Source: Cycloclasticus sp. symbiont of Poecilosclerida sp. N | GTDB taxonomy: Bacteria > Pseudomonadota > Gammaproteobacteria > Methylococcales > Cycloclasticaceae | DNA length: 64,000 nucleotides | Assembly (NCBI GenBank): GCA_002101205.1 | Contig: LWTM01000068.1 | Location: 1 to 64,000 of the forward strand | Direction: 5' to 3' | Shown: piece by piece, positions 8,876 through 29,137 of the stretch | Numbering within the stretch: the first letter of the stretch is position 1 | How the letters are laid out: every line of letters begins with the position of its first letter | Program-made: the position numbers and the translations under genes | The notes under the pieces: generated by a model | Seen by the model: only the letters and a program-made list of their open reading frames with translations | What the model was told of the DNA's origin: nothing | Databases searched by the model: none

Positions 8876-9204
8876 GTAGATATATCAAATAAATAAAGGA
8901 CTAACTTAAAGTAAGCTATGCTTTGTAGACTAACAACCCAAACTTATTCTTTTATGGGTGTCTGACAATAGTGGGAAGAAAACAGCGCTTGGGTCACCCT
9001 TTGACATTTAAATTGTTTCACAATTAAGCTGGCTTCTAACAAAGGCTTTTACGTCAGTTGCAAGTTAGGCGGCATACGTAAAAACAAAACCACACTCTAT
9101 TTAACATAATATACATTATACGAAGTTAAACTATGTGTTCTATATCCCGTGTTTTGCAAATAAACCGCCCTAGCCAAGAAGTTATGTTTTGATTTTTCGA
9201 GAGA
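8876..9204. other. Gene-free stretch after FKBP
   Basis: I see no open frame with codon character, no RNA gene and no clear terminator in these 330 bases. It separates the plus-strand core genes from the decayed cobalamin gene relics and probably includes eroded coding DNA. Confidence 0.4.
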
Positions 9205-9438
9205 TCAATGTAATAAAACGTTACTCTTCCCAATAGTCCTCAAAACCCTCTCACCTAACACTGTTGCTTTAGCCCACGCCTCTAATTCCAACATGGGCTT
9301 TTCATAAAACTCATCAATACAACCAATACATGAAATAGCCACAGGATGACGGCCTTCAGACATTTTAAACAGTTTTTTAAGTGACCCGGCCTCAAGTAAA
9401 AAAACCCAGCCCACTCCAATGCCTTCGACTCTTGCCAT
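9205..9438 (-). pseudogene. bluB (5,6-dimethylbenzimidazole synthase), C-terminal relic
   Basis: The frame reads ARVEGIGVGWVFLLEAG, then HPVAISCIGCIDEFYEKPML-E-L-E-x-W-A. In BluB the corresponding stretch is R-A-E-G-x-G-V-G-W-V-S, then P-V-A-Y-L-C-x-G-x-V-x-x-F-Y-x-x-P-x-L-E. BluB cleaves FMN to make the lower ligand of vitamin B12. Only the last third or so is present. The sequence just upstream on the same strand does not continue the family, so the gene is broken. A cobW relic lies right beside it, which supports the reading. Confidence 0.6.
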
Positions 9439-9489
9439 TTAGCCGTTTGTGGAAAATATTGCGCCCAAGGGGTTGAAGCAACTACGGTG

Positions 9490-9835
9490 ATTATCTACAC
9501 CGCCTCTCTAAGGTAGCGTCAAACACGAAATGCCTCTGCCGAACCCACAGTTAATGTTTTAACGGCATCCGGCACGGCTTGTTGCGCACTCGCTTTAACA
9601 CGGCCTTTTGGGCGTTATCCAATCAATCACGTTCACTCACCACAACAAGGTCTGCGGCACTTAACTGTCCGTCCAACAATTCACGCAAACTTGAACCGCG
9701 TTCCAAACTATCATCAGCCAAACGCTGCGCTTCAACTAACGCCTCATCATCTGCAAAGCGGCCTGCAAAAACAGCAGGTCATCTATGACGGTAACAACCG
9801 CATCCACCGTACAACAAATTTAAAGGCACTGTATA
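9490..9835 (-). pseudogene. cobW (cobalamin biosynthesis G3E GTPase) relic
   Basis: On the minus strand, three frames together give a CobW-like order. First comes TVDAVVTVID (near 9815-9785). Then, after a shift, GRFADDEALVEAQRLADDSL, followed by LLDGQLSAADLVVVSERD where CobW has a D-Q-x-x-A-A-D-x-I-V-L-N-K-T-D segment. After another shift and a stop comes VPDAVKTLTV. The Walker A part is absent. CobW proteins are metal-insertion GTPases of the aerobic cobalamin pathway. The frameshifts and stops show it is dead. Confidence 0.55.
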
Positions 9836-9869
9836 ACGTGGCAAACGCAGTCGTTATGCAGAATTTCTT

Positions 9870-11102
9870 TTAATAATTATAAGCCAATACCGCACGTAGT
9901 TGATGGTCTTTCCCTGCTACATTCTTATCGTTAATGTGTGTATAAACGAAATCAAGTATCGCCGCATCGCTCCACTCATAACTTAGGTATATGTCCGCCT
10001 CCTCCACATCATAATCAGACTTATCACGCGCAGTAAATTGTCCAAAATCGCACCCTAACGTTAAGTGATGGCTCATGGCATATTCCAAACCAATCAGCAG
10101 TGCTTCGGCCCTATCGCCTGCAACGGCATCCAGCGTTTGATCTTCCATTGATGTAAAAAATGCACCATCGCCAAGGCTTGGCAGTGCGCCGTTATTCGTG
10201 TGGTTGCGGTTATACGCAAAGGTTGCCGTTATATCGTTATAGTTTATGGCCGATAAAATGCCCCACGTTTTCGCATCCACCACACCCATATTGCGCGAAC
10301 CAATATCTTCACCCCAATCAGCTTGTACTGCAGCGGTGTATTCAATATTGCCCACGTTTGCGCTGTAACTCATATCGGCGTATATAATTTGTGAATTATC
10401 CACCACGTTGTAATACCAAAGGCTAGTCTCGGCAAAATCACCTTCGTGCGTAACCCACGTCAACCAAGAACGGTGACCATCGCCACCAAACGCATCGCCA
10501 ACACCCTCAAAATGCGATTGATCAGAACCATTCTCCCCTCCGCTCATCGTGCGTACAAAACCTGCCCCCGCATGTAAGTTATCCGCTAAATGGAACTCAG
10601 CAAGGTAAGCTTCAAATAAATGCGGTACCAAGCGAAGATCATCATTGTTCATATGCGGCGTATCAAGCCGTTGACGGCCTAAGTTTGCTTCAAACGAGTC
10701 AAAAGATAGTTTTAAATGCGCTTCGCCCAGGATTAAATAACCGTCTGTCTTTTCATTAAAAAAGTCATCGTACACACGGTCATCATTACTGCGGTTTAAA
10801 CCCGCGCCCATTGTTCCAAAAAGTGCCGCATGAAACGTTACACGCTCGTTAACAGCAAAGTGGCAGCCTAACTCACCACCAATAGCATTTGCCGCCAGTG
10901 TATTAACCGCACCAAGAGAAGAGCGTATAACCCCTGCTCGCAACTTAGCATCACAACCCGACTGTTTACCAAAGTGTTCAACCACCTGATAAGGCGTTGC
11001 ATAAAAATCATAGGGAAGACTCGGTCCCTCAGCAGGACTATGTGCCCAAACAGATTGACTTAATAAGGTAAAAAAGGCCACGCAAAATTTATTAAAACTC
11101 AC
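9870..11102 (-). CDS. OprD-family outer-membrane porin
   Basis: The 410-residue product has a signal peptide (SFNKFCVAFFTLLSQSVWA, cleavage about residue 20) and then a beta-barrel rich in alternating aromatic and polar segments that ends in an aromatic residue (AVLAYNY), as outer-membrane proteins do. The motif GRQRLDTPHMNNDDLRLVPH-L-F-E-A-Y near residue 145 is typical of OprD porins (F-D-x-R-M-x-P-N-x-F-E-A). OprD channels take up carboxylates, basic amino acids or aromatic compounds. The substrate here cannot be read from sequence. It lies directly upstream of the cobW and bluB relics on the same strand, and 12 bp downstream of hsdM. Confidence 0.8.
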   Translation of the reverse strand: MSFNKFCVAFFTLLSQSVWAHSPAEGPSLPYDFYATPYQVVEHFGKQSGCDAKLRAGVIRSSLGAVNTLAANAIGGELGCHFAVNERVTFHAALFGTMGAGLNRSNDDRVYDDFFNEKTDGYLILGEAHLKLSFDSFEANLGRQRLDTPHMNNDDLRLVPHLFEAYLAEFHLADNLHAGAGFVRTMSGGENGSDQSHFEGVGDAFGGDGHRSWLTWVTHEGDFAETSLWYYNVVDNSQIIYADMSYSANVGNIEYTAAVQADWGEDIGSRNMGVVDAKTWGILSAINYNDITATFAYNRNHTNNGALPSLGDGAFFTSMEDQTLDAVAGDRAEALLIGLEYAMSHHLTLGCDFGQFTARDKSDYDVEEADIYLSYEWSDAAILDFVYTHINDKNVAGKDHQLRAVLAYNY

Positions 11103-11114
11103 AAAATATTCCTT

Positions 11115-12575
11115 CTATGCCACTACACATAGCTTTTCTTCGACGCTTCTAAACTCATCTAGCGCGGCCTCTAATTGTTCTACTATTTCAGCCGCTAACA
11201 CCTCTGGCGCTGGTAAATTCTCGATGTCTTCCAGCGAATCATCTTTTAACCAAAAAACATCTAGGTTGGTTTTGTCTCGAACAATAACCTCATCGTAACT
11301 AAATGCTTTCCAACGTTCATTATCAGTTGACTCTAGCCGCTGACTTCGATCATTCGCCTTATATAACTCAATAAACTCATCAAAATGGCTCTTCACTAAA
11401 CGCTTTGTTTTTAGCGTCATGTGTATATTGGTACGAAAATCATAAATCCAGATTTTTTTAGTCCAAGCGGTTTTAGATGCCAGCTTAGCATCAAAGAAAA
11501 TTACGTTGGCCTTGACCCCTTGCGCATAAAAAATACCCGTTGGTAAGCGCAGTATTGTGTGCAAATCCATACGTTCCATCAGCGTTTTACGCACCGTCTC
11601 ACCCGCTCCGCCTTCAAACAAAACGTTATCGGGCACAACCACGGCTGCCTTGCCATTTATCTTCAACATATTGGCAATATGCTGCACAAAGTTAAGCTGT
11701 TTATTAGAAGTCGTTGCCCAAAAATCTTCGCGTTCTATCGTTAGCTTTTCAGTCTCTTTTTTACCAGTTTTTTCATTAACAATGGTAATCGAACTCTTTT
11801 TACCAAAGGGTGGATTCGCCAACACCATATCAACACGGTCATCACCCACCTCTTTAGCCAACGCATCGGTCGCGCTAATCGGGCATTCATCACCACCAAT
11901 GCCGTGCAGGTATAAATTCATCGCGCATAAACGCACCACGCCATCGACTATATCGTTACCGCGTAAGGCGTGTTCTTTCAAATGGCGCTGCTCTTTTTTA
12001 GAACTTGCCTGTGCGGCCATATAATCATGCGCCGCTAATAAAAAACCACCCGTACCACAAGCAGGGTCGGCAACTGTATCTAACGCTTTAGGCTGCATTA
12101 CCTCAACCATTGCCTCAATTAATGGGCGCGGCGTAAAATACTGCCCTGCCCCCCCTTTAACATCTTGCGCATTACGCTCCAGCAAGCCTTCGTAAATTTC
12201 GCCTTTAACATCCGCCGGCAAGGTAGACCACTTCTCCTTATCAATCATCTTAATCAAGCGTTCAAGCTTGGCTGGGTCTTGAACCTTATTCTGTGCTTTG
12301 CGAAAGATAGTACCGAGCATACCGCCCAGTTTGCCTAAGCTTTCTAAAGTATGGCGATATTGCAGCTCTAAATCATCCCCATCCAGCTTTACCAGCATAC
12401 CCCAGCAATAAGCAGCAGGCACCTTAACAACTTGGCCAGACTGCTCACGCTCATCCGCCATTTTAAGGAAGATTAGGTAGGTTATTTGCTCTACATAATC
12501 ACCATAACCAACTCCATCATCACGCAGCACTTGCGCGTAATTCCAAACCTTATTGACTATCTCTGATGCACTCAT
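11115..12575 (-). CDS. hsdM: Type I restriction-modification methyltransferase subunit HsdM
   Basis: The 486-residue adenine-N6 methyltransferase works with HsdS to methylate, and with HsdR to restrict, its target site. The N-terminal HsdM_N helical domain (MSASEIVNKVWNYAQVLRDD) is followed by GQYFTPRPLIEAMVEVM near residue 140, motif I ADPACGTGGFLLAAH near 165, and catalytic NPPFG (motif IV) near 252. The length is normal for this type. Unusually, it stands alone. hsdS and hsdR are 5 kb away, and the two intervening genes directly upstream are the toxin-antitoxin pair mntA-hepT, whose hepT stop overlaps the hsdM start by four bases. Confidence 0.95.
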   Translation of the reverse strand: MSASEIVNKVWNYAQVLRDDGVGYGDYVEQITYLIFLKMADEREQSGQVVKVPAAYCWGMLVKLDGDDLELQYRHTLESLGKLGGMLGTIFRKAQNKVQDPAKLERLIKMIDKEKWSTLPADVKGEIYEGLLERNAQDVKGGAGQYFTPRPLIEAMVEVMQPKALDTVADPACGTGGFLLAAHDYMAAQASSKKEQRHLKEHALRGNDIVDGVVRLCAMNLYLHGIGGDECPISATDALAKEVGDDRVDMVLANPPFGKKSSITIVNEKTGKKETEKLTIEREDFWATTSNKQLNFVQHIANMLKINGKAAVVVPDNVLFEGGAGETVRKTLMERMDLHTILRLPTGIFYAQGVKANVIFFDAKLASKTAWTKKIWIYDFRTNIHMTLKTKRLVKSHFDEFIELYKANDRSQRLESTDNERWKAFSYDEVIVRDKTNLDVFWLKDDSLEDIENLPAPEVLAAEIVEQLEAALDEFRSVEEKLCVVA

Positions 12576-12913
12576 TTGTTAGTACTTATTTGCTGTAGTT
12601 GAATGATAATCAAGGGAAGATCATCTTGAATAATACTCCATAAAATATCGTTATCTATACCCAAATAACCATGAATCAATCTATTACGAGTTGCAATAAT
12701 TTGCCTCCAAGGTATCGAGCTATACTCCTCACGTATTTCTGTTGGAATATGCATGGCAGCCTCACCAATTAATTCTAAATTACGTACGGTTGCATCATAA
12801 TTCAAGCCTGTTGACTCAAATGATTCTAATGTTAAACCATCAGAATATGCCTTTGCATTTTCAGCAAAACCGAGCATATCTTGTACATAAAAACACCATT
12901 CACGCTCAGACAT
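12572..12913 (-). CDS. hepT: HepT-like HEPN ribonuclease toxin
   Basis: The 113-residue protein starts at MSEREWCFYVQDM; an in-frame start at 12931 lies inside mntA. DUF86/HepT family: an all-helical HEPN fold with the R-x4-H catalytic motif in ATRNRLIHGYLG near residue 80. HepT toxins cleave RNA and are silenced by MntA, which adds AMP to the Tyr of the R-x4-H-x-Y motif; that Tyr is present here (H-G-Y). The start overlaps mntA by 8 bases and the stop overlaps hsdM by 4, so all three are probably cotranslated. Confidence 0.88.
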   Translation of the reverse strand: MSEREWCFYVQDMLGFAENAKAYSDGLTLESFESTGLNYDATVRNLELIGEAAMHIPTEIREEYSSIPWRQIIATRNRLIHGYLGIDNDILWSIIQDDLPLIIIQLQQISTNK

Positions 12914-13196
12914 TAATTGCCTCACTTTCAATAAACTCTTTTAGTTCTGGGCGCAAAGCTTTTTCAGTCACCAAATCAATCGGCTGCCCCAGCGTATCCT
13001 CAAGTAGGAACTGTGCACCAAAATATTGCTTGGATGTTGCTGCACCATCAAAAGAGATAATAATATCTATATCACTGCCTTCTTTGGCCTCATCACGTAC
13101 AGTAGAGCCAAATAAAGCTAAGCGGGTTACGCCAAATCGTTTTATTAACTCTGGTTTTAATTGGCTTAAAGCCGCTAAGGCGTGTTGTTTTTTCAT
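12906..13196 (-). CDS. mntA: MntA-type nucleotidyltransferase antitoxin
   Basis: This 96-residue minimal nucleotidyltransferase has GSTVRDEAKEGSDIDI near residues 30-45, which is the G-S-x-x-R-x(n)-S-D-x-D signature that binds metal and ATP. In this family the enzyme AMPylates and so neutralises the HEPN toxin HepT, encoded next. The start follows AAGGAAATTAAA. A CCTAGT/ACTAGG inverted repeat at 13216-13232 lies just upstream and may be the operator. A degenerate second copy of much of this gene lies at 13363-13537, and its first 11 codons recur before hipB (14.8 kb). Confidence 0.88.
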   Translation of the reverse strand: MKKQHALAALSQLKPELIKRFGVTRLALFGSTVRDEAKEGSDIDIIISFDGAATSKQYFGAQFLLEDTLGQPIDLVTEKALRPELKEFIESEAINV

Positions 13197-13246
13197 TTTA
13201 ATTTCCTTAAATTCTCCTAGTCATCAACTAGGGATGATGTTCAATC

Positions 13247-13537
13247 GTCACGCAACACCTAGGCGTAATTCCAGACTTGTTGACTATCTCTGATGTACTC
13301 ATTTGTTAATACTCATTTTCTGTAATTTCTTGATGATTAAATGCCTTTTTTCGCTCAGACATTAATCGCCTCATTATCAATAACCGCTTTTAACTCAGGA
13401 CGCAAAGCCTTTTACGTCACCAAATCAACCGGCCGCCCTAACTCATCCTCAAGTAGGAACTGTGCACCAAAATATTGTTTAGAGGGTTGCAGACCCATCA
13501 AAAGAGATAATAATATCTATATCGCTGCCCTCTCTCG
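13247..13537 (-). pseudogene. Degenerate partial copy of the mntA-hepT-hsdM junction
   Basis: 13247-13302 matches the first codons of hsdM (12525-12577), including its start. About 13303-13362 matches only the two ends of hepT, with the middle deleted. 13363-13537 matches mntA from its C-terminus to the SDIDI region. Base changes and indels break every frame. The order and strand are the same as in the intact genes right next to it, so this is a tandem duplication that has decayed. Confidence 0.8.
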
Positions 13538-13637
13538 CTTATGTATTGTATATATATAACCGAAATTAACCATAAATCAATTTTTAGAAAGTTTTAGAGT
13601 GCCTGTCCCTGTTTTTACGGTCAGATGCAAGTTTTTG

Positions 13638-13982
13638 TTAGGGGTGATAAGAGTGCAAGCCTTGAAGCATTTTCAGGCAATACGAATTAAGGCTCTCGCC
13701 TTTTCTTAGTGCACCGATACTTAACTGCTCATGCAATTCTTTACCAACGCGTAGATTGAATTTACCAGAGTATTTTTTTCCTGCTGTTGATTTAGGAATA
13801 GGAGTGCCATCTAGGTTATAAATATCTATCCATTCTTCTACATTTTTGCATAACTCTTTGTATACTTTTGCTTCATCATCACCATGAATGCCGCCTAACA
13901 TTAGACCAGGGCAGTGGCCTATATAGCATTGATCTTCTTCAGACCACTCGACTATTTTTAAATATTGATCACTTAATTTCAT
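13638..13982 (-). CDS. hicB: HicB-family antitoxin
   Basis: The 114-residue product starts with the partially degraded RNase-H-like HicB fold (YLKIVEWSEEDQCYIGHCPG, then a G-I-H-G-D-D-E-A turn). It ends with a ribbon-helix-helix DNA-binding segment (KFNLRVGKELHEQLSIGA, E-S-L-N-S-Y). HicB binds and blocks the HicA toxin and represses the operon. Its ATG overlaps the hicA stop (TAATG). Since hicA is frameshifted, hicB may be an orphan antitoxin here. Confidence 0.88.
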   Translation of the reverse strand: MKLSDQYLKIVEWSEEDQCYIGHCPGLMLGGIHGDDEAKVYKELCKNVEEWIDIYNLDGTPIPKSTAGKKYSGKFNLRVGKELHEQLSIGALRKGESLNSYCLKMLQGLHSYHP

Positions 13983-14172
13983 TATGACACCTCGTTAACT
14001 GCATTTTTTACGGCCTTGATTTGAGATGGCTTTGCATCATCGCCTGTTTTTCACTAATTGTGATTTTGCTTCCTTTTTGATGTGTGAAATTACGATGGCT
14101 GCCTTTTTCTCCTCTGTTTTCGAAACCGGAAGATTGTAATTGACGGATTAACTCTCTAATCTTTGGAGGCAT
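13982..14172 (-). pseudogene. hicA: hicA toxin gene with a one-base frameshift
   Basis: Reading from ATG at 14172: MPPKIRELIRQLQSSGFENR, then GEKGSHRNFTH, QKGSKITISEK. This is the double-stranded-RNA-binding-like HicA mRNA interferase with its conserved catalytic His (GSHRNF). After the K the frame is lost. The family's next segment G-D-D-A-K-P-x-Q appears in the next frame, as GDDAKPSQIKAVKNAVNEVS, and ends with TAA overlapping the hicB start. The total of 191 bases is one short of 64 codons, so a single deletion near CAGGCGATGATG explains it. The residual product would be a truncated, altered HicA. Confidence 0.82.
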
Positions 14173-14181
14173 AAATAGATG

Positions 14182-14196
14182 GTACTGAAATAGTAC
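14182..14196. promoter_or_regulatory. Inverted repeat upstream of hicA, candidate HicB operator
   Basis: GTACT-GAAAT-AGTAC is a perfect 5-5-5 inverted repeat 10 bp upstream of the hicA start codon. HicAB operons are repressed by HicB or HicAB at such operators. TATAGT on the minus strand partly overlaps it and could be the -10 box. Confidence 0.4.
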
Positions 14197-14351
14197 TATA
14201 GAGTCAAATTCTTACCCATAACGTCTTACGTCAGATGGAAGTGCTTGTTGGGCGATTTAGTCATCGACATATTCAGAAGTCGTTAATTTAAAAGGGGCGC
14301 CACCCTTCTATTCAAGCGATTGCGCAAAAATAAAGACCTGCCCCCGAATCC

Positions 14352-14429
14352 TTAGGATCGTAAAGTACCAACAAGAACAGGCGAATCAAACGCTTCCCAA
14401 TCAGCAAAAACATAAACTTCCGTACTCAT
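14352..14429 (-). pseudogene. hipA kinase-toxin gene, N-terminal stub
   Basis: From ATG at 14429 the frame reads MSTEVYVFADWEAFDSPVLV-G-T-L-R-S and stops at 14352. HipA-family kinases found with this type of HipB begin in just this way. The rest of the gene (over 400 codons) is absent. The start is 10 bp past the hipB stop, which is the normal hipBA spacing, so this is what remains after a deletion. Confidence 0.65.
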
Positions 14430-14439
14430 ATTGGCCACC

Positions 14440-14739
14440 TTAACCTTTACTCAGCAGCTTAATATCCTGAAGCTTCCGCCCCAGCTCGTCATCACTGGCG
14501 ACCTTAGCAAAATCATCCGTTAAACCAAGCACTGCGAGCACCGCCACATAGTGGCCTATAGAAACGCCAGAACCACCTTGTAATACTCTACGAATGGTTA
14601 AACGGCTTAGACCCGTTCGTTCAGAGATCAAAACCTGTGTGTAGCCACGCCGTTTACAGGCAAGTTTAATATTCTCGCCAAGTTGCTCTAAAACCTTCTT
14701 ATTTTTAGGGAAAACAACAGCACTTCGTTTTTTATTCAC
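14440..14739 (-). CDS. HipB-like XRE transcriptional regulator
   Basis: I chose the GTG at 14739, giving VNKKRSAVVFPKNKKVLEQL and a 99-residue protein, because family members begin at this point. An earlier ATG at 14904 would add 55 residues that include an unrelated copy of the mntA start. The helix-turn-helix lies about residues 20-55 (ENIKLACKRRGYTQVLISER, T-G-L-S-R-L-T-I-R-R). The C-terminus has the D-D-E-L-G-R-K-L-Q-D motif usual in HipB-type antitoxins beside HipA. With hipA reduced to a stub it probably survives as a stand-alone regulator. Confidence 0.75.
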   Translation of the reverse strand: MNKKRSAVVFPKNKKVLEQLGENIKLACKRRGYTQVLISERTGLSRLTIRRVLQGGSGVSIGHYVAVLAVLGLTDDFAKVASDDELGRKLQDIKLLSKG

Positions 14740-14798
14740 TTCAACCACAGGCACTATACTATAGTGGACTCCAGTATTTAGACCAATACTTAAAGCCG

Positions 14799-14840
14799 CT
14801 AAGGCGTGTTGCTTTTTCATTTTAGGTTCCTTAACTTTTT
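14799..14840 (-). repeat. Copy of the mntA start region fused upstream of hipB
   Basis: CTTAAAGCCGCTAAGGCGTG, followed by TTGCTTTTTCATTTTA, is nearly identical to 13160-13202 at the mntA start and encodes MKKQHALAALS in the same strand. It joins abruptly to hipB leader sequence near 14798. It marks a recombination junction between the mntA and hipB modules. Confidence 0.7.
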
Positions 14841-14880
14841 CGATAAAGGCACCATATACGTTGCCTTGCTGAAATCCAAT

Positions 14881-14896
14881 GGCCATATATATGGCC
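14881..14896. promoter_or_regulatory. 16-bp perfect palindrome, candidate operator
   Basis: GGCCATATATATGGCC reads the same on both strands and lies in the space between the minus-strand hipB/mntA'-type leader and the plus-strand small gene at 14975. A diverged version with the same flank (ATATATATAACCGAAATTAACC) occurs at 13547-13570, upstream of the decayed mntA copy. It could therefore be the original operator of the mntA module. Confidence 0.4.
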
Positions 14897-14974
14897 GAAA
14901 TCAACCATAAAACAATTCTTAGCGCCTGACCAGAAGCTTATTCAACCATTATTAAATCTGCTAAAATTCAAACT

Positions 14975-15151
14975 ATGGAAAACAAATCCCTTGCCTCATC
15001 TAACCCATTTCTAAAAGATGCTACCGTTGCTCGTAAACAGATCGTTCGTAGCATTGCCAGTTCTACAGCCATTGAAACGGGTGAGTCCATAGAGGTGATC
15101 GAAAAGAAGCTTAGCCAGAAATATTCTCGGCATCACGTAACGCTTGCTTAA
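14975..15151 (+). CDS. Small protein of unknown function (58 residues)
   Basis: The 58-codon frame reads MENKSLASSNPFLKDATVAR, K-Q-I-V-R-S-I-A-S-S-T-A-I-E-T-G-E. It looks like real coding sequence (Ser/Ala-rich, no rare codons in a run, an N-P-F-L-x-D start), but I do not recognise a named family. It is divergent from hipB and is the only plus-strand frame inside the defence island. There is no good Shine-Dalgarno site. Confidence 0.45.
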   Translation: MENKSLASSNPFLKDATVARKQIVRSIASSTAIETGESIEVIEKKLSQKYSRHHVTLA

Positions 15152-15237
15152 AAACAGCCTTCATCGGTTCTATATATTCTACTATTCTACTTCTGTAGTA
15201 TTTTATTCGATCCGATCCTTTGTAGTACTTTATTCGA

Positions 15238-16881
15238 TCAGATCCTTCTCTCGTGTGCTGTTTCAATTCGGCACATTAAATGGGAAATAAGACTTAATAG
15301 ATCAAGGCAATCTTTCTCGGAAAAAAGGCCAGACTCTGATAAATCAATGACTTCTTGATGCGCAACAACATTACGTCCACCTTCTATAATACCTTGCGAA
15401 AGTTTACGTTGAGCAGACTCTATATTTTTAACCGTCTTTACCGAAAAGAAATCCCCATTGCCTCTAACGTAACCGACAACAACTTTTAAAGCTTTTGCAT
15501 CTTCAGGACCAAATACATTGCCCATTAAGTCGAAGTCTCGCGTATTATTATTTCCCGAATATTCACGAACCTTATTTGCATACCTTTTTACAGCCTCTAA
15601 AAATGCAGCATAATAGTTACCACCCTTATACCCCTGTTCAGAAGCAATCTGAATTTCAGGATGAAGGTGTCGCCAATGTAGATTAGGGTATTCAGGAGCC
15701 AACTGATGCACAGCTAAAACAACTGGATGAAAAGACTCATCAACTCCTTCATCTGTACTCAATGTATTAACAATTGTTTCTACTGGTTTTTTTATCTCAT
15801 CTGGCAAAGTAGAAAGCCACTTTTCCTTGTCGATTCCTGTGTTCTTCTTAAATTCATCATCTTTCTTAGTCTTCCGCTTCTCTCTCCAGTTTATGCCAAC
15901 TTTAGAAATAAGATCTCTTAGCCACTCTCTAAACTCCGCCATTTTCTCATCTTCCCAATTAATGGCTTGACGATTTGTTGAAATAACATCCTCGTCTAAA
16001 AGGTCAATAAAATCTGCCTTTATCCAACCAGTAAGGTACTGATAAAAATGACTTGATGCGCTATCAGAAAAATACTCAGGCGCATTAACCAACTTCCCTC
16101 TTGAAAAAATCGTAATCCCCCGCAGTCCAGAACTTGGCTTAATGGGTGTTTTGCTAGTAATAATATGAAAGTCTATATCGTCAATGAATTCAAAATCATT
16201 TAATTCTAACGATGCTTTGCCCCATATAAACTGCTCCTCCATCTGTCCATAACGGCGTTCATTAGTGACTACTACATCCTTCCCACCTGTTTTCTTTAAA
16301 ACAATACTAAAATCCGTATCAATAATAAATATTCTTGAAAGGCTATCTGCTAATGATTCAAGGTCGAAAGCACTTTTCCTTTTCAACCTCCTCAGCACTA
16401 TTGCCGTACCATTGCTATTCCCCGTTTCCTCATCGACAATCTCAGAAACTGGCCTATAAACACTATTAGAGCTTAGAAGCTCATCCCAATCTAGCTGAAA
16501 GCGATTCCGTTTCATTTCTTGCACAGTGTCTAATACAATCTCTTTTGCTAATCCAAAAAGAGCTAGTTTTCCCAAACCTTTTTTTCCTGTCGGCATACGA
16601 CCATACTTTGGTGATGGTTCATCCCCATCCTCCGACCTTCGGTTACGCCCAATAACTAGAAAACGTTCTTGAATGTCAGAAGCACTCATCCCATAACCAT
16701 TATCTTTTACCGTTATAGAGACAGGCGTTCCATTTTGTTCGTGAAAGGTCACCTCAACTTCACTAGCGTCCGCATCATAAGCATTTGATATAAGCTCTGC
16801 CAATGCAGGTGGCAATGTTGAATACATTTTTACGCCCAAGTGCTCAATTGTTTTCGGGTCAAACCTTAGTTCATAATTCAT
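15238..16881 (-). CDS. MORC/MutL-like GHKL ATPase, R-M associated
   Basis: The 547-residue product has an N-terminal GHKL (Hsp90/MutL) ATPase domain. Motif I is ALAELISNAYDADASE near residues 26-41, motif II VKDNGYGMS near 59, and motif III GRMPTGKKGLGKLALFGLA near 94. An S5-like second domain and a helical C-terminus follow. MutL/MORC relatives encoded beside DNA methylases in restriction systems are a known group (paraMORC; Iyer, Abhiman and Aravind). The partner here is the C5 methyltransferase 10 bp upstream. The exact role is inferred: ATP-driven clamp or loop capture that helps restrict unmodified DNA. Confidence 0.75.
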   Translation of the reverse strand: MNYELRFDPKTIEHLGVKMYSTLPPALAELISNAYDADASEVEVTFHEQNGTPVSITVKDNGYGMSASDIQERFLVIGRNRRSEDGDEPSPKYGRMPTGKKGLGKLALFGLAKEIVLDTVQEMKRNRFQLDWDELLSSNSVYRPVSEIVDEETGNSNGTAIVLRRLKRKSAFDLESLADSLSRIFIIDTDFSIVLKKTGGKDVVVTNERRYGQMEEQFIWGKASLELNDFEFIDDIDFHIITSKTPIKPSSGLRGITIFSRGKLVNAPEYFSDSASSHFYQYLTGWIKADFIDLLDEDVISTNRQAINWEDEKMAEFREWLRDLISKVGINWREKRKTKKDDEFKKNTGIDKEKWLSTLPDEIKKPVETIVNTLSTDEGVDESFHPVVLAVHQLAPEYPNLHWRHLHPEIQIASEQGYKGGNYYAAFLEAVKRYANKVREYSGNNNTRDFDLMGNVFGPEDAKALKVVVGYVRGNGDFFSVKTVKNIESAQRKLSQGIIEGGRNVVAHQEVIDLSESGLFSEKDCLDLLSLISHLMCRIETAHERRI

Positions 16882-16891
16882 ACTTAATCCT

Positions 16892-17929
16892 TTAATTTGT
16901 TTCTTCTAAGTGCCTTCTCACCATTGCCGCGTGTCTTTTGATAAATTCAGGCGGCAAAGCATTGCCAATCATCAATGCAACCGCATCTTTTCCTTTCTTC
17001 ATTGAAAATTGATAATCTTTTGGGAATGTTTGAAGCAAAGCCGCTTCTCTTAAACTAATAACACGATTTTCTTCTGGATGTAAAAATCGGCCTTTGGATG
17101 GTTGGTGGCATCCACCAGTTATAGTTGGGCTAACAGTATCCCATGCCATCCTTCCATACACATCTGTATAACTTTTAGGACTTTTAAGATGGCACTTTAA
17201 CCAATACTCCTTAGGCAATTGTGCTCTCGAACCTCCATCTTTAGGAACTAACTTAATCATTTCTTCTATTCTTTTAGTTCTTTTAGCCCTTAAATCATGG
17301 AGCACATCACCACTTTTACCAACCGCACCAAAACCATGAATAACGTCCCTAACAGTAACTTTCTTATCTGCCTTTTTAGCTGGCTTTATGAAACCAATTC
17401 TAGATGCTAATAAAATCATTCGTCGTCGTCTCTGAGGAACTCCATACTCCGAAGCATCTTTAACTTGTACTGTGTTTTCATCAATCTGATAGCCCAATTT
17501 TTTTAATTCTTCTAAAACAGTATCAATCCTCTTATCTTTCGCCAACCCCGGAACATTTTCCATCATGATGGTTTTAGGTAGCATTGCACGGACAAACTTC
17601 ATAAGCTCAAAAACCAAGTCATTTCTGACATCACTAACAGATGCCACCTTATTACGAGTTCTATGAGTTGAAAACCCTTGGCAAGGAGGACAGCCTGCCA
17701 ATAAATCTAATTCGCCAACTCTCAACCCCAAATCATTCATTACTTTTTCAGGTTTAAGCTCTCGAATATCCTCCGCATACAATTTATGGTCACTGTAATT
17801 AGACTTATACGTACTTATAGCTGGTTCCGAGTTTTCAACACCAGAGATAACTTTAAACCCCGCATTTATCAAGCCTAAAGTCAGTCCACCAGCTCCACAA
17901 AACAAATCAATCGCTTTATATTTATCCAT
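16892..17929 (-). CDS. DNA (cytosine-5-)-methyltransferase
   Basis: The 345-residue C5 methylase moves a methyl group from SAM to cytosine in a specific site. Motif I is DLFCGAGGLTLG near residue 8, catalytic motif IV AGCPPCQGFSTH near 78, motif VI ENVPGL near 123, motif VIII PQRRRRMI near 164, and motif X GNALPPEF near 322. The target recognition region lies about 190-290. The start codon abuts the hsdS stop with no gap, and the MORC-like ATPase gene follows, so the pair rides in the hsd operon. No separate endonuclease for this methylase is visible. Confidence 0.93.
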   Translation of the reverse strand: MDKYKAIDLFCGAGGLTLGLINAGFKVISGVENSEPAISTYKSNYSDHKLYAEDIRELKPEKVMNDLGLRVGELDLLAGCPPCQGFSTHRTRNKVASVSDVRNDLVFELMKFVRAMLPKTIMMENVPGLAKDKRIDTVLEELKKLGYQIDENTVQVKDASEYGVPQRRRRMILLASRIGFIKPAKKADKKVTVRDVIHGFGAVGKSGDVLHDLRAKRTKRIEEMIKLVPKDGGSRAQLPKEYWLKCHLKSPKSYTDVYGRMAWDTVSPTITGGCHQPSKGRFLHPEENRVISLREAALLQTFPKDYQFSMKKGKDAVALMIGNALPPEFIKRHAAMVRRHLEETN

Positions 17930-19342
17930 TTAATTAAACCTACCATTAAAAGCTGAAGCCAGTATTGATTGCTTATTTTTTTCAGCTTTTAGCAACTGAA
18001 TATCTAGCTCATCTTCCAGTTTGTTTATTGAATACAGCTTCTCCTCCACCCTAAACACCATTTGTTCCATTTCTAATATTGAAGGCAAAGGGAATGGCAA
18101 GGTGGTAAATGATTCTTTAGTGAAGTGTTTAATTGTGCTTCCAGTAAAATATCTTTGCAACAAACCAGTTGATGCAAAATATTCAAGAAGATAAACTAGG
18201 TATTGCGGTATCAACGGAAGGTGAAAACGTACGCGGTGTAATGCTTTTTGATACTTCAGAGTAACCCCACCCTCCCATACTGCCGATCTTCCGGGTTCGC
18301 CTCCTTCACAGACCAAAACATCACCAGCACTCAAGTCATATCTTTTTAATTCACTTTCCTTAAAAAACATTTTCAATAAATTATCCGTATCAATTCTTCC
18401 CCACCTTACATTGATATTCCTAAGGTATTGAATACTCTCCCCCGTAGCATGCTTCCCTTTGTCTAGCATTTTACCCAACCAAATCTCGGCAACCTGATCA
18501 ACTGATGCCATCTCCCACTCATTTGGGTTTTCTAAATCCACAAGCAAGGCTGGTTTTTTAGGCTCTTTATACTTCTCCTTCCACTTATCATCCTTAGGCA
18601 TTTTACCTTTGGCTTGGAATTTTCTGAGCTGTTGTTCTTCCCATTTTTGGCGGTGTTCTTTTAGGATGCGTTCGAGTAGTTGGCTTGCTGGTTCTAATTT
18701 ACCTTTATTCTGTTCGCGCCAGTCTTTGGTTAGCTCGCCGGTAACGGCGGCTTTGAGGACGGATTGGCGGTATTGTTTTAGGAGTTTTTGGGCTTTTTTT
18801 AGGGCTTCTATTCCTGCATCAATATGGGAGAAGAGCTCTTCGATTTTGGCGACGATGCGTTTTTGTTGTTCGGGTGGGGCTAGTGGAAAATCTAAATTTC
18901 TTACCTGTTCTAACCGTATGCCTTTAACAGTTGTACCTGAACCTATGCTTTCTAAATGATTAGCTTTAGAAACGAACCAGTATTCTAAATAACCTTTTTG
19001 TACGTCAGGGGGCAGAATAAGTGCTTTTAGGTCTTGGTTAATTGCTGCTTTATATGGAACACGAACCACCTTCCCTAAGCCAATCCGAGTCGCGATAATT
19101 ACAGTATCTTCAGGAATAATATTTGTTGAGCTTTTTTCTACCCCTTCCTCCGTAATATGGTTCTTTGCATCGGCAGGCCGCCTTGTTCTCATATCTTTGA
19201 CAGTAAGCCACGGGATGTTGCCATTCCAATACTGCGGATTATTTTTAGAGGGTGTCCCTCCTCCAATTACCTTAGTTACTACATCACCAAGTTTTGACCA
19301 AACCCAGCCACTCGGTAACTCTTTTAGGAGTTCCTCACTCAT
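17930..19342 (-). CDS. hsdS: Type I restriction-modification specificity subunit HsdS
   Basis: The 470-residue product has two target recognition domains, each followed by a conserved helical spacer. TRD1 is about residues 8-160 (LPSGWVWSKLGDVV, IPWLTVKDM), the central helical region about 160-260 (APPEQQKRIVAKIEELFSHI), TRD2 about 275-430, and the C-terminal helix after FPLPSILEMEQ. It dictates the split DNA target of the HsdRMS complex. The ATG overlaps the TGA of a short copy of the hsdR 3' end (19339-19512), probably the ancestral hsdR-hsdS coupling. Confidence 0.94.
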   Translation of the reverse strand: MSEELLKELPSGWVWSKLGDVVTKVIGGGTPSKNNPQYWNGNIPWLTVKDMRTRRPADAKNHITEEGVEKSSTNIIPEDTVIIATRIGLGKVVRVPYKAAINQDLKALILPPDVQKGYLEYWFVSKANHLESIGSGTTVKGIRLEQVRNLDFPLAPPEQQKRIVAKIEELFSHIDAGIEALKKAQKLLKQYRQSVLKAAVTGELTKDWREQNKGKLEPASQLLERILKEHRQKWEEQQLRKFQAKGKMPKDDKWKEKYKEPKKPALLVDLENPNEWEMASVDQVAEIWLGKMLDKGKHATGESIQYLRNINVRWGRIDTDNLLKMFFKESELKRYDLSAGDVLVCEGGEPGRSAVWEGGVTLKYQKALHRVRFHLPLIPQYLVYLLEYFASTGLLQRYFTGSTIKHFTKESFTTLPFPLPSILEMEQMVFRVEEKLYSINKLEDELDIQLLKAEKNKQSILASAFNGRFN

Positions 19343-19512
19343 GCAATCAAATACCCATTCAATTCATTAATCATTGGCTGTAGTTCTTTGCCAAACAGCT
19401 GGGTTGCTTTTAGCAATCCTCCTTCTTCTTGGTTGAAGGGTGTGTATTCAAAATCATCGAAGGTCATTTCTGCATTTTGGGCGATTTGTTCTTTTATTTT
19501 GTTTATCAACAT
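19339..19512 (-). pseudogene. 57-codon duplicate of the hsdR 3' end, still coupled to hsdS
   Basis: 19342-19505 repeats 20524-20684 with few changes and encodes the HsdR tail (KIKEQIAQNAEMT, then GKELQPMINELNGYLIA). The frame is intact from ATG at 19512 to TGA at 19339. The ATG has GTGAGG as a ribosome-binding site, sitting in the last codons of rhuM-fic. The TGA overlaps the hsdS ATG (ATGA). The piece could be only a scar of the rhuM-fic insertion, or could still serve as a translation relay that feeds hsdS. Confidence 0.8.
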
Positions 19513-19517
19513 TACTT

Positions 19518-20504
19518 TTACCTCACTAGCATACTCATAATCAGTCGAATCATGGTTTCTTTTTGTTCAGGTGCCGACTCGGCAACCAGTAGTGTCAGCG
19601 CTGCCAATCCAGTATCGTTAATGATCGGTTGGTCTTGCTTGTTTAGTAAGCTATTGTTTCTATGTAAAAAGTCTACAAATAGAAATGCTCCGCTGCGTTT
19701 ATTGCCATCGGTAAAGGGGTGGTCTTTCACCATAAAGTACAGAAGGTGCGCTGCTTTGCCTTCTATACTTGGGTAGGCGGGCTCTCCAAATATTGTTTGC
19801 TCAAGATTGCCGAGTATCGAGGCTATGCTATCGGTGCGTTCTTTGGCAAATAGCTCTGTCGCTTCGCCTCGTTGTACGAGGCTAGTTTTAAATTCTGCTA
19901 AGGCTTGTTTTACTTCGATTTCGGTGGGTAATACACCACCTGCCTGGCCTTGTGGCTCTATTAACAGGCCTTCATCGTAACGTTGCAGCCATAAAAAGGT
20001 TTGGGTGTAGCGGCGGACTATTTCCACTAGGCCTGTACCCACCTCGGCTGTAATAGTTTGTGATTGAGCGGTCTTTTTAATTAGGCATAACATCGCTTCT
20101 AGCTCATTGGCATTTTGCTCAAAACGTTGCTGGTTGAGGGTGTAACCTTGGGTTAAATATTCTCGTAAGCGCTGGGTTGCCCAAATGCGAAATTGAGTAC
20201 CTTTTAATGAATTAACTCGATAACCGACGGAAATAATGGCATCCAAATTATAAAACATGACCTTTCTTTTAACCTTGCGTCTGCCTTCTTGCCGAACTAT
20301 CGAGGATTGCTCGGTAGTTGCTAACTGTTCTAACTCTCCTGATTCATAGATATTTTTTAGGTGCAGGCTAATTGTATCGCTGTCCCTTTCAAATAGCTCA
20401 GCCATTTGTGATTGCGAAAGCCATAAGGTTTCTTGTTCAAAGCGAACCTCAACTTGGGAATGGCCATCTTCGGACTGGAATATTTCTATTTGCTTATTGT
20501 TCAT
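19518..20504 (-). CDS. RhuM-Fic (DOC) fusion protein
   Basis: The product has 328 residues. The N-terminal RhuM-type half (VEVRFEQETLWLSQSQMAEL, then VKRKVMFYNLDAIISVGYRV near 80-100) resembles Salmonella virulence protein RhuM and phage regulators. The C-terminal half carries the Fic/DOC AMPylation motif HPFTDGNKRSGAFLFVDFL near residue 262, complete with catalytic His and phosphate-binding loop. This architecture is common inside type I R-M operons. Fic enzymes modify proteins with AMP or other phosphates, but the target is not known. It lies 16 bp downstream of hsdR and is flanked by direct copies of the hsdR 3' end. Confidence 0.88.
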   Translation of the reverse strand: MNNKQIEIFQSEDGHSQVEVRFEQETLWLSQSQMAELFERDSDTISLHLKNIYESGELEQLATTEQSSIVRQEGRRKVKRKVMFYNLDAIISVGYRVNSLKGTQFRIWATQRLREYLTQGYTLNQQRFEQNANELEAMLCLIKKTAQSQTITAEVGTGLVEIVRRYTQTFLWLQRYDEGLLIEPQGQAGGVLPTEIEVKQALAEFKTSLVQRGEATELFAKERTDSIASILGNLEQTIFGEPAYPSIEGKAAHLLYFMVKDHPFTDGNKRSGAFLFVDFLHRNNSLLNKQDQPIINDTGLAALTLLVAESAPEQKETMIRLIMSMLVR

Positions 20505-20520
20505 TTCTCACCATGCCATC

Positions 20521-23295
20521 TTATGCTATCAAATACCCATTCAATTCATTAATCATTGGCTGTAGCTCTTTGCCAAACAGCTCGGTTGCTTTTAGCAACC
20601 CCCCTTCTTGGTTGAAGGGTGTGTATTCAAAATCTTCGACGGTCATTTCTGCATTTTGGGCGATTTGCTCTTTTATTTTGTTTAGCCAGGCTAATTGGTC
20701 TGGAGTGAATTCTTTGTTTTGCTGCTGTAGCCAGTTTTCGAAGCGGTTATTGACTATCTCTGTGAACGATTCTAGCACATCGGTTATGCCGGTTGCCAGT
20801 CTTAGTAAGCTAACCAATACGGGGAGTTTGCTGTGGGGTGCTGCGCCTTTTACTTTGGCTTTTTTTAGCTGCTCGTAGGCTTTCCATACTTCTACGGGGG
20901 CTATGTGGTATGGCGGTTGTTCTATCTTTTCTACCAGTTGGTTGATCATGTCGTAACTTAGGTGGCGCTTTTGGTAGGGTTGCCGGTAGATGAGTTGTAT
21001 GGCATCGAGTTCGTTTTGATGGTCTTTTATAAATTGTTGCCAGTTGTTGATGAGCCCTTCGGCTTTTTCTACATCGTAGCCGGTGCCTTCTGTATCTATT
21101 TCGTCTGCGCTGTCGTCTATGAGTTGGTCGCTGTCTTTTCGTAGGGTTTCTATTAGCTCGCGCAAGGCAGGTTGGTGGAAGGGTTTTACTAGTTCGTTTG
21201 CCTCTGGTTTGAAGGCTTGTTGAACCTGTTCTTCTGTGGGCGTTGCTTCTGCTGTGTTGTTTATTGCTTTTGCGGTTTCTAGCAGTTTGTCTTCATTGGT
21301 TGCACGTATTAGTTCACCGGCTATTAGGGCAAGTGGTTTACTGGCCAGTTGGGATACTTGTTTGCGCTGTTGGTCGCTTAGCTTTAGGTCTAACCGTATT
21401 AGGCGGTTGCCCAGTGCGCGCAGTGTGTCTGAGTGGCGATCCCCTCGGGCGATTTGTTGCATGAGTTTTTCGGTGGAGATGCTGGGTTTTGTTTCTAGCG
21501 ATCGGGTTTCTGTTTTGTCGGTTTCGGTAACGCCTACGCAATCAACCAGTACAAAGCGGCTTTTGCCGGGGGCATCGGGGGTTACTTTGTGTAGCTCATC
21601 TATGCTGAGTACGCGTGTGCCACGGCCTTTCATCTGTTCGTAGTAAGATTGGCTTTTTACATCGCGCATAAACATAACGCATTCGAGCGGTTTTATGTCG
21701 GTACCGGTGGCGATCATATCGACGGTTACGCTGATGCGGTATTGGGGGTTTGTACGGAAGGCTTTGATGGCCTCTTCTGCTTCGCGCTTACCTATTTTGT
21801 AGGTGATTTTTTTGCAGAAGGCGTTGCTTTCATTAAACACTTCTCGCACGGTATTGACTATGCGGTCGCAGTGGTCGTCATCTTTGGCGAAGATGAGTGT
21901 TTTGGGAACCCATGCCATTTTGCCGTTGTTAAATTCTCGCTCTGGAAAACACTCTTTTAGGCAACGGTCTTTAAAGGCTTGGATGACGGTACGAATTTGG
22001 TCGGGTGCGATGACGCTTCTGTCGAGCTGCGCGGCTTCCCACTTTTCTTCTTCGTCTAGTATTTCTAGCCGTTTTTGTTTGGTGAACCTATCGCGCCTTT
22101 GTACGGCAGTTCCTGCCTCTAGGGTACTTCCCTTTTCGGTCATTTCTGTTTTGATGCGGTAGATGTCGTAACCTACATTTACTTTATCAATGACTGCGTT
22201 TTCATGGGTGTATTCAGAGACCATATTTTGATTAAAAAAACCGATGGTCTTTTTGGTGGGCGTGGCGGTTAGGCCGATTAAAAAGGCATCAAAATATTCA
22301 AGCACTTGTCGCCATAGGTTGTAGATGGAGCGGTGGCATTCATCAATAATGATAATGTCGAACGCTTCAATAGGAATGCTTGGGTTGTAGGTAACGGGGC
22401 GCGGTTGCTTATTCACGCTGCTGGTTTCCACTTCAAAGCCTGAGTGCTCGTCTGCCTCATCATCTAGCTCTTGCCCTGTTAGCTGTGAGTACATGCGCTG
22501 AATGGTGGATATGGTTACTTTGCTGGCCTCGACTATGCCTGCACGGCCAAGTATGTTGACGTTGTAGTGTTGGGTGAATTTACGGCCATCATTCGGGATG
22601 ACAAATTGTTCAAACTCATCTTTTGCATTGGTGCCTAAGTTGCCACGATCAACTAGAAATAAAACACGCTTTGCCTTGGCAAATTTAGCTAGGCGATACA
22701 CCTGTTTAACAGCGGTATAGGTTTTACCTGAGCCTGTGGCCATTTGTAGTAGCGCGCGAGGTTTAGCCTGTTTTAAGCTGCCCTCAATGCCATGAATAGC
22801 GTCAATTTGGCAATCACGTAAACCTTCTGTGTTTAGCTCAGGTAAATCCTCTGCTAGCCTTGAGCGCAGGCTTCTGCCCTCTTCTAGCCATTCTTTAAAG
22901 GTTTCTGGTTTATGGAAATGAAACAGGGGCCGTGAGCGCGGTTTTGGGTCTCGCTCGTCGCGAAAACGAATTTCTTGATTGGTGGCTTCGTATAAAAAGG
23001 GTAACGGCTGGTCGTCTTCTACCCAGCGTTCTACATAGTTGCTATGGGATGTGGCATAACGTGCTGATTGTTCCGCAACACCGCCAAGGTTTGCGCCCTC
23101 TTTCTTCGCTTCAATAATGCCGCAGGCTTTGCCCTCTATAAACAACATGTAATCGGCAGGACCGCTGTCTGTGTCCATTTCACGCACGGCAACGCCTAAC
23201 GATTCAAAGAGATTTAGTTGAGTTTTATCTTGGATAACCCAACCACAGCTCTTTAGCTGCTTGTCAATATATTCACGTGTTTCGGCTTCTAGCAC
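20521..23295 (-). CDS. hsdR: Type I restriction enzyme HsdR subunit
   Basis: The 924-residue motor-nuclease moves DNA and cuts it when the target is unmodified. The PD-(D/E)xK nuclease is N-terminal (SGPADYMLFIEGKACGIIEA-K near residues 43-64). The SF2 helicase follows with Walker A MATGSGKTYTAVKQ near 183, DECH box IIDECHRS near 314, and motif VI in EQMKGRGTRVL near 560. The C-terminus is an EcoEI-type HsdM-interaction domain. It is first in the minus-strand hsd operon. The 3' 161 bases also occur just before hsdS. Confidence 0.94.
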   Translation of the reverse strand: MLEAETREYIDKQLKSCGWVIQDKTQLNLFESLGVAVREMDTDSGPADYMLFIEGKACGIIEAKKEGANLGGVAEQSARYATSHSNYVERWVEDDQPLPFLYEATNQEIRFRDERDPKPRSRPLFHFHKPETFKEWLEEGRSLRSRLAEDLPELNTEGLRDCQIDAIHGIEGSLKQAKPRALLQMATGSGKTYTAVKQVYRLAKFAKAKRVLFLVDRGNLGTNAKDEFEQFVIPNDGRKFTQHYNVNILGRAGIVEASKVTISTIQRMYSQLTGQELDDEADEHSGFEVETSSVNKQPRPVTYNPSIPIEAFDIIIIDECHRSIYNLWRQVLEYFDAFLIGLTATPTKKTIGFFNQNMVSEYTHENAVIDKVNVGYDIYRIKTEMTEKGSTLEAGTAVQRRDRFTKQKRLEILDEEEKWEAAQLDRSVIAPDQIRTVIQAFKDRCLKECFPEREFNNGKMAWVPKTLIFAKDDDHCDRIVNTVREVFNESNAFCKKITYKIGKREAEEAIKAFRTNPQYRISVTVDMIATGTDIKPLECVMFMRDVKSQSYYEQMKGRGTRVLSIDELHKVTPDAPGKSRFVLVDCVGVTETDKTETRSLETKPSISTEKLMQQIARGDRHSDTLRALGNRLIRLDLKLSDQQRKQVSQLASKPLALIAGELIRATNEDKLLETAKAINNTAEATPTEEQVQQAFKPEANELVKPFHQPALRELIETLRKDSDQLIDDSADEIDTEGTGYDVEKAEGLINNWQQFIKDHQNELDAIQLIYRQPYQKRHLSYDMINQLVEKIEQPPYHIAPVEVWKAYEQLKKAKVKGAAPHSKLPVLVSLLRLATGITDVLESFTEIVNNRFENWLQQQNKEFTPDQLAWLNKIKEQIAQNAEMTVEDFEYTPFNQEGGLLKATELFGKELQPMINELNGYLIA

Positions 23296-23391
23296 TGTTT
23301 AGCTTCCTGCTTTTTTATTTAGTTTATCAAAACTTTGTCTGTAACAGACTTAAGAGCATCATATTAGGTATACACACTGTAAGGCCATTAA

Positions 23392-23940
23392 TTAACCTTG
23401 GTAATTATCCACAATTTCATCAAAAAAAGCTTTACCTGAATCTGACAGAATAAAGGCGTTTGAGCCTATTTTTTGTAGCATGATGTTGCGCTCTACTAAT
23501 ATAGGTTTTATTGAGGCGCTAAAGTCTCGTTTCATAGCCGATTTTTCGAGTATCTCTGCGGTATCTGGCATGTCTTGAATTCCCTCAAAGTCTGCCTCGG
23601 TTAACCCGCCGCTTGGGTCTATTAGCTTGCTGATTCTATAGTTGTTTTCGGTTAGATATTTGCCCATTAATAGCAGCAGCACGCAGGCTTTCATGGTTAT
23701 ATCCGTTTTTAGGCTGTTTGTATCAGCGTTACGTTCTCGAATGTAGATATAGCAGGAACTTTCTACAAATTCGTAGCCTGACATTTTGTATTGGGTTCGA
23801 TAGTCATCAAGATTGTCTATTATTTCGGTGAATAATGGGTTTTCGGTAAAGCTGTTGCTATTATCTAAGCTGGTTTTGTTGATGATTCTACCGTTCATCA
23901 GTTCGTTAAAGATGCGTTGGCTCGTGGCTGCGTTATACAT
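23392..23940 (-). CDS. MukE-like winged-helix subunit (JetB-type) of SMC complex
   Basis: The 182-residue product is predicted alpha-helical with a C-terminal winged-helix look (ILVERNIMLQKIGSNAFILS, D-S-G-K-A-F-F). I do not see diagnostic motifs. The call rests on size, on its position as the last gene of an operon with an SMC ATPase, a kleisin-like and a TOPRIM gene, and on the JetB/MksE role as kite-type kleisin partner. The start overlaps the previous gene by 8 bases. Confidence 0.65.
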   Translation of the reverse strand: MYNAATSQRIFNELMNGRIINKTSLDNSNSFTENPLFTEIIDNLDDYRTQYKMSGYEFVESSCYIYIRERNADTNSLKTDITMKACVLLLLMGKYLTENNYRISKLIDPSGGLTEADFEGIQDMPDTAEILEKSAMKRDFSASIKPILVERNIMLQKIGSNAFILSDSGKAFFDEIVDNYQG

Positions 23941-28948: not shown

Positions 28949-29075
28949 GCAACTTTATTCTAATTCTACAGGTGGGTAATCATGTTGAATAACATGGTAA
29001 CACCGTTTTTTATTCCCATTTTGAATGGATGTTTTGACTAAACGACGTCCCTGTTAAGGGATGTCTGAGGGGCAT
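28949..29075. other. Intergenic space with the presumed promoter of the SMC operon
   Basis: No gene is seen. TTGAATAACATGG-type AT-rich sequence upstream of 28948 on the minus strand probably holds the promoter of the four-gene SMC/TOPRIM operon. I could not assign -35 and -10 boxes with confidence. Confidence 0.3.
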
Positions 29076-29108
29076 AAAAAAGCAGCAAATACTTGATTTT
29101 CTGCTTTT
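29076..29108 (-). terminator. Intrinsic terminator after ETF-QO
   Basis: On the minus strand AAAAGCAG pairs with CTGCTTTT, and the T run follows directly (complement of AAAAAA at 29076-29081). It lies 30-60 bases past the ETF-QO stop. Confidence 0.75.
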
Positions 29109-29137
29109 AAAATAAACTCTAATGGCTGAGCTATGCT

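Follow-up and report, generated by a model that had tools for sequence, protein, structure and literature searches.

A C5-cytosine methylase and a GHKL ATPase with a predicted HEPN RNase domain as a probable autonomous defence pair inside a type I restriction-modification operon

The window analysed here, a 64,000-nucleotide stretch of a contig from a Cycloclasticus symbiont, carries an island of about 20 kb (Table 1), whose flanking genes enclose only 4.4 kb in a relative of the same genus (G375), and DNA homology between the two stops at 9126 and restarts at 29135. Within the island, on the minus strand and in the order hsdS, methylase, ATPase-HEPN, lie a methylase gene and, after a gap of 10 bp, the gene of a 547-aa protein, both of them real and intact. 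As an earlier reading of the letters alone (the sequence-only reading) had it, the cytosine methylase abuts hsdS without a gap (17929/17930, 0 bp) and is followed by a 547-residue GHKL ATPase with intact ATP-site motifs. The same reading placed the pair inside a type I restriction-modification (R-M) operon. This holds for hsdR and hsdS, which together with a RhuM-Fic gene are found upstream, but the operon is split and hsdM lies 2.7 kb downstream of the pair. There hsdM stands away from hsdR and hsdS behind an MNT/HepT toxin-antitoxin pair with genes overlapping by 4 bp (11115-13196, minus strand), the HepT of which is a second HEPN domain on the same island. The last ~165 bp of hsdR are duplicated at 19338-19505 and 20520-20684 on both sides of RhuM-Fic (93-96% identical), as if insertion of the RhuM-Fic gene had been accompanied by a duplication, or as if the gene were excisable. 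A four-gene operon at 23392-28948 (minus strand), with MksE, a JetD-like protein and a large SMC-like protein among its products, appears to be a divergent, Wadjet-like (Wadjet/Mks) system; its matches to JetC3 and JetD3 are weak and its gene order is D-C-?-E. Directly where the ATPase gene ends, a 27-bp unit is present in two tandem copies (15194-15247).

Table 1. Features of the island and of the methylase-ATPase pair in the window.
Feature	Position	Strand	Remarks
GHKL ATPase-HEPN (paraMORC-Ymh) protein, 547 aa	15238..16881	-	full-length homologues in 49 loci
GHKL ATP-binding domain, residues 23-139	16465..16815	-	PF13589 (HATPase_c_3), E 9e-21
Ymh HEPN domain (PF09509/TIGR02391, Hypoth_Ymh), residues 404-538	15268..15672	-	E 1.5e-15; predicted fold
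RX4H motif R503-N-V-V-A-H508, predicted RNase active site	15358..15375	-	R and H in 50/50 homologues
C5-cytosine DNA methyltransferase, 345 aa, putative self-marking partner	16892..17929	-	PF00145, E 2e-57
hsdS	17930..19342	-	directly upstream of pair, 0 bp gap; neighbour outside the unit
RhuM-Fic	19518-20504		upstream of pair, between hsdS and hsdR
hsdR, EcoAI/EcoEI-like	20521..23295	-	neighbour
hsdM	11115..12575	-	neighbour; the pair and other genes stand between it and hsdS
Island, ~20 kb: type I R-M, methylase-ATPase pair, MNT/HepT, Wadjet-like operon	9127..29134	.	between fkbp and ETF-QO

The ATP-site residues N33/D36, D60-x-G62-x-G64 and G99-K-K-G-L-G104-K of the 547-aa protein are invariant or nearly so among the homologues. 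Its best NCBIfam match is to the BbrUII/HgiDII restriction enzymes (NF050001, 222.8 bits, E 8e-66), residues 3-378 aligning to positions 1-402 of the 659 in the profile and thereby covering the GHKL ATPase and the middle region. Past profile position 402 no match to NF050001 was found, and the PD-(D/E)XK-type DNase region is absent. The whole protein falls short of the curated cut-off of 550 bits; phage L006 scores 751. Since the match to NF050001 is followed by one to TIGR02391, the ATPase part belongs to a family of type II restriction enzymes, with another domain at the place of the DNase. The sequence-only reading had labelled the protein a MORC/MutL-like ATPase; its best match is to the BbrUII/HgiDII family and not to MutL. 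An ordinary MutL was ruled out at 28 bits against a cut-off of 180, an ordinary Hsp90 on profile scores, and MORC proper by the strict GhXhhpXXRhl motif of the S5 domain, which is found in 0 of 50 homologues. The motif is said to have been described by Iyer in 2008 for the S5 domain of MORC proper; a loosened form is found in 44 of the 50 homologues and reads GITIFSRGKLV in the window.

The sequence-only reading held that no endonuclease belongs to the pair, which is true for DNA but missed the predicted HEPN RNase domain at the C-terminus. R503 and H508 of its RX4H motif are kept in all 50 full-length homologues, down to 35% identity, and are invariant in alignment A4. The AlphaFold2 model of the Ymh domain is all-helical with a pLDDT of 91. 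Foldseek alone gave no significant match for this model (best E 1.8), and in a second-look structural alignment the top 17 entries were all HEPN proteins (Z 9.1-5.9, a value of about 9 being modest for a helical domain), and unrelated bundles of helices came only after these. Because Foldseek alone was not significant, the HEPN assignment rests on fold and motif together, and by these the C-terminus of the protein is predicted to be a HEPN domain and probably an RNA-cutting toxin.

The paraMORC-Ymh architecture is already known as a prediction. In 2013, Anantharaman et al. put Ymh in the HEPN RNase superfamily, including paraMORC ATPase fusions in R-M neighbourhoods, predicted the RNase from RX4-6H and proposed that paraMORC-Ymh proteins act like PrrC/RloC (PMC3710099). 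The window protein is alike in having an N-terminal GHKL domain with intact ATP motifs, a C-terminal PF09509 domain and an R-M context. No experimental test of this architecture was found in the literature. Whereas the 2013 proposal is that of a PrrC/RloC analogue tied to R-M generally, what is added here is the HEPN effector at this locus, a constant C5 methylase partner, independence from type I R-M, and evidence that effectors have been exchanged on the chassis of a restriction enzyme, with descent beside GHKL-DNase restriction enzymes.

A scan for full-length homologues in one genome per species, with viral contigs added, gave a census of 49 loci, window included, with 45 distinct sequences at 90% identity. 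They are spread over 12 named phyla, one archaeal MAG included, and some of the MAG phylum assignments may be binning errors. In E. coli no ATPase-HEPN copies were found at the DNA level. A C5 methylase is located within 700 bp of the ATPase-HEPN gene in 43 of the 49 loci and within 8 kb in all of them; the gap is 30 bp or less in 31 loci and the two genes usually have the same direction. Motifs IV, VI, VIII and X are present in all 44 partner methylases (44/44), and the window methylase has all catalytic motifs. For comparison, C5 methylases in the class to which the window's organism belongs number roughly one per 5 Mb. Type I genes lie close to 6 of the 49 loci. Where about 10 kb is available on both sides, hsdM, hsdR or hsdS genes are present in 2 of 31 loci, which are near-identical to each other, and absent in 29. 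Vsr repair genes are common companions, and in an inovirus-like contig (L009) methylase, ATPase-HEPN and Vsr are found in this order beside Zot. Since the pair recurs with a C5 methylase and mostly without type I genes, the unit is the pair, and an autonomous, stand-alone defence unit of the paraMORC-methylase kind, which was one of the possibilities first suggested for it, is supported.

In the tree of the ATPase part all HEPN versions form one group, with a GHKL-TIR protein inside and GHKL-DNase relatives around or adjoining it. A single clade of HEPN-type ATPases was not rejected (AU p 0.28), and the tree fits one origin of what is, by its domain match, the HEPN version. For the methylases of the HEPN type a single clade was rejected (AU p 6e-6; L083 left out, its ATPase being cut by the contig end), at least four changes of partner type being forced, and in the methylase tree the partners of HEPN-type and DNase-type ATPases are intermixed. 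Methylases have been interchanged between the DNase and HEPN versions.

In E. coli P2-like prophages a C5 methylase and a GHKL-DNase are flanked by the replication endonuclease on one side and the portal gene on the other (L148 5326-8371, L150 4326-7371). Overall, this methylase shares 62% identity with that of the window, and across the recognition region 59%, the level also seen among methylases inside the HEPN group. The gene after it encodes a GHKL protein of 670 aa that matches BbrUII along its entire length. Pantoea has a similar pairing of methylase and GHKL-DNase. In Elusimicrobia (L085 9986-11728, and L086) a GHKL ATPase with a C-terminal TIR domain, which matches the TIR protein SpbK (E 4.8e-7), stands between a C5 methylase and Vsr. 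By these cases similar methylases are found beside GHKL proteins with different effectors. Enzymes of the BbrUII/HgiDII type and paraMORC3 (GHKL with PD-(D/E)XK) share with the window protein the GHKL-S5 part and the kind of C5 methylase partner but have a DNase, in place of which the window protein, below the family cut-off, has the HEPN domain. An N-terminal GHKL ATPase and a C-terminal nuclease, predicted in the window protein, are also combined in VcSduA, the GHKL-Shedu protein of Vibrio cholerae, in which the ATPase controls the nuclease and both ATPase and nuclease residues are required for phage protection (PMC12137116). VcSduA differs in its DNase effector, which is described as hitting the phage directly with the host preserved, and in having no described methylase partner (PMC12137116). 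Taken together, the cases suggest a common logic in which methylation is the off signal and the output is DNA cutting in some, RNA cutting in others and probably NAD loss in still others. The fuller proposal, that an R-M chassis carries exchangeable effectors (DNase, HEPN RNase or TIR) and that in the present version unmethylated DNA leads to RNA cleavage with the methylase as antitoxin to the RNase, is put forward at even odds.

The preferred reading, to which a probability of roughly 0.6 is given, is that the pair is an autonomous defence unit on a type II R-M chassis, the DNA cutter being replaced by a HEPN RNase and the methylase serving as antitoxin and marker. The C5 methylase would mark target sites on self DNA, and the GHKL-S5 ATPase, or clamp, part would probably act as an ATP-driven dimer that loads on target DNA lacking the methyl mark or closes around it. 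Since the active site of a HEPN protein arises where two monomers meet, closing of the clamp with ATP on phage or plasmid DNA without the mark would join the two RX4H sites of the Ymh domains, which may have replaced a former PD-(D/E)XK DNase. RNA cleavage would then start and lead to translation arrest or abortive infection, by which protection against phage may be gained. Since unmarked DNA would trigger RNA cutting, the methylase would be an antitoxin as well as a marker. Counting against this reading are the lack of a significant Foldseek match for the HEPN model and its modest Z, the further genes that join the pair at some loci, the exchanged methylase of L046/L055, and the VcSduA-type GHKL-nucleases, for whose action no methylase has been described. 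In R-M as it is taught, self DNA is marked and foreign DNA is cut; if the pair works as proposed, the marking logic would also drive an RNA-cutting and probably abortive response, with DNA methylation as the antidote to an RNase, and type II R-M and HEPN abortive infection would be united in one two-gene system. A widespread predicted family would also be given a function, and GHKL sensors would be modular like other defence sensors. The pair is compact and present in culturable Halomonas, Pseudomonas, Bordetella and Atlantibacter, and in E. coli prophages the GHKL-DNase counterparts, whose methylase is similar, allow a matched comparison.

The best surviving alternative, though an unlikely one, is a second line behind C5 R-M, the HEPN protein keeping watch over the methylase, or over a DNA endonuclease that goes with it, and firing upon inhibition or loss of these and not by reading DNA. 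This would agree with two loci (L046/L055) in which a weak BsaWI-like restriction endonuclease (E 6e-4) sits between methylase and ATPase, and with L029, which lies beside an HpaII-type R-M system; on these two coincidences CCGG may be named as a lead to the methylase target. In L046/L055 the methylase is moreover swapped under a nearly constant ATPase-HEPN, the latter being ~70% identical to its relatives and the methylases of the two sides only 23%. Because ATPase-HEPN proteins of such similarity are combined with an unrelated methylase, the ATPase may be independent of any single sequence: either the two specificities happen to agree, or the signal for the ATPase is not the site itself. Against a guard of this sort, methylase and ATPase-HEPN directly abut in most loci without room for an endonuclease between them, and the two co-diverge generally (Mantel r 0.57, 0/500). 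Relatives of the methylase beside a named restriction endonuclease were sought in plasmids, phages and E. coli, and only unnamed or GHKL-type partners were found. When the flanking genes of odd loci were checked with Pfam for a restriction endonuclease, the pair was seen to be joined by the weak BsaWI-like enzyme, an OLD-like ATPase, HEF_HK/response-regulator genes or Z1 systems, and since other genes join it in some loci the pair can be an add-on. At L047 4272-13273 and L030 1974-7226 genes of the HEF_HK/Response_reg_2 type accompany the ATPase-HEPN or lie close to it, and a C5 methylase is present as well, which connects the ATPase-HEPN with two-component-like R-M elements (PMC8011034).

Next in rank, and unlikely as well, comes a guard of the PrrC kind, in which the neighbouring type I complex would hold the ATPase-HEPN protein inactive until a phage block releases it. 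PrrC-EcoprrI, a HEPN anticodon nuclease with type I R-M, is likewise an NTPase-HEPN protein encoded in or beside R-M genes, and the analogy has been published for paraMORC-Ymh proteins in R-M neighbourhoods (PMC3710099); PrrC has however an ABC ATPase and is bound to HsdRMS, whereas the window pair's kind is GHKL and mostly without HsdRMS, type I genes being absent in 29 of the 31 loci with full flanks. Adjacency to hsdS is shared by the window with a Halomonas locus (L031), which reads hsdR-hsdS-methylase-ATPase-HEPN up to the contig end, and with a Flavobacteriaceae MAG (L032), in which the same order is followed further on by hsdM. Yet the type I proteins of the window and these two are only ~25% identical as against 58-64% for the pairs, so that unrelated type I operons hold the same pair in the same position. 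Together with the census of neighbourhoods, this speaks also against a clamp or sensor for HsdRMS as a general role, the other function that the sequence-only reading had considered. The type I setting is nevertheless not meaningless and leaves room for a local connection in the subclade of the window, L031 and L032. Directly after the pair, both relatives have a further gene for an ABC-type ATPase (L031 11650-12909, L032 7544-8659). It carries a DPISSLDDNN motif, may have an RX6H at its C-terminus and looks PrrC-like, and its presence argues against the pair itself in that role.

Less probable than either guard is a selfish addiction unit, the pair mainly stabilising its mobile element by post-segregational killing with phage defence being incidental. 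Type II R-M addiction runs on the same methylase-toxin logic, and the pair is found in the inovirus-like contig and, in the window, on an island of ~20 kb; it sits there, however, among several other defence systems, and a chassis that elsewhere bears DNase or TIR effectors agrees with immunity no less well. Highly improbable, finally, is an inactive interaction domain at the C-terminus of a MutL/MORC-like clamp that recruits another nuclease, since the R and H of RX4H are kept in all 50 divergent homologues, unlike in a scaffold, and no nuclease gene is common to all loci, even if Vsr is near many of them and MutL, like other GHKL clamps, can bring in a separate nuclease.

In N. gonorrhoeae (L004 9089-12054, L010 and L068) the C5 methylase and the ATPase-HEPN gene are both broken and the Vsr gene next to them is intact. 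The NgoAXIII methylase is truncated (PMC6789123), and the gonococcal locus may be what is left of NgoAXIII, with Vsr as a third gene that had gone unrecognised. As a single case, the locus fits an effector that is not keepable without its methylase. Related methylases (41% and 37% identical) are also found beside a HEPN nuclease in Klebsiella (L142 4992-7877) and Polaromonas (L147 1-2982), where the C5 methylase is accompanied by DUF262/GmrSD_N and a MAE_28990 HEPN protein. The sensor protein in these loci is unrelated to that of the window pair and the HEPN family is another one, and the arrangement looks like a second, unrelated and convergent one.
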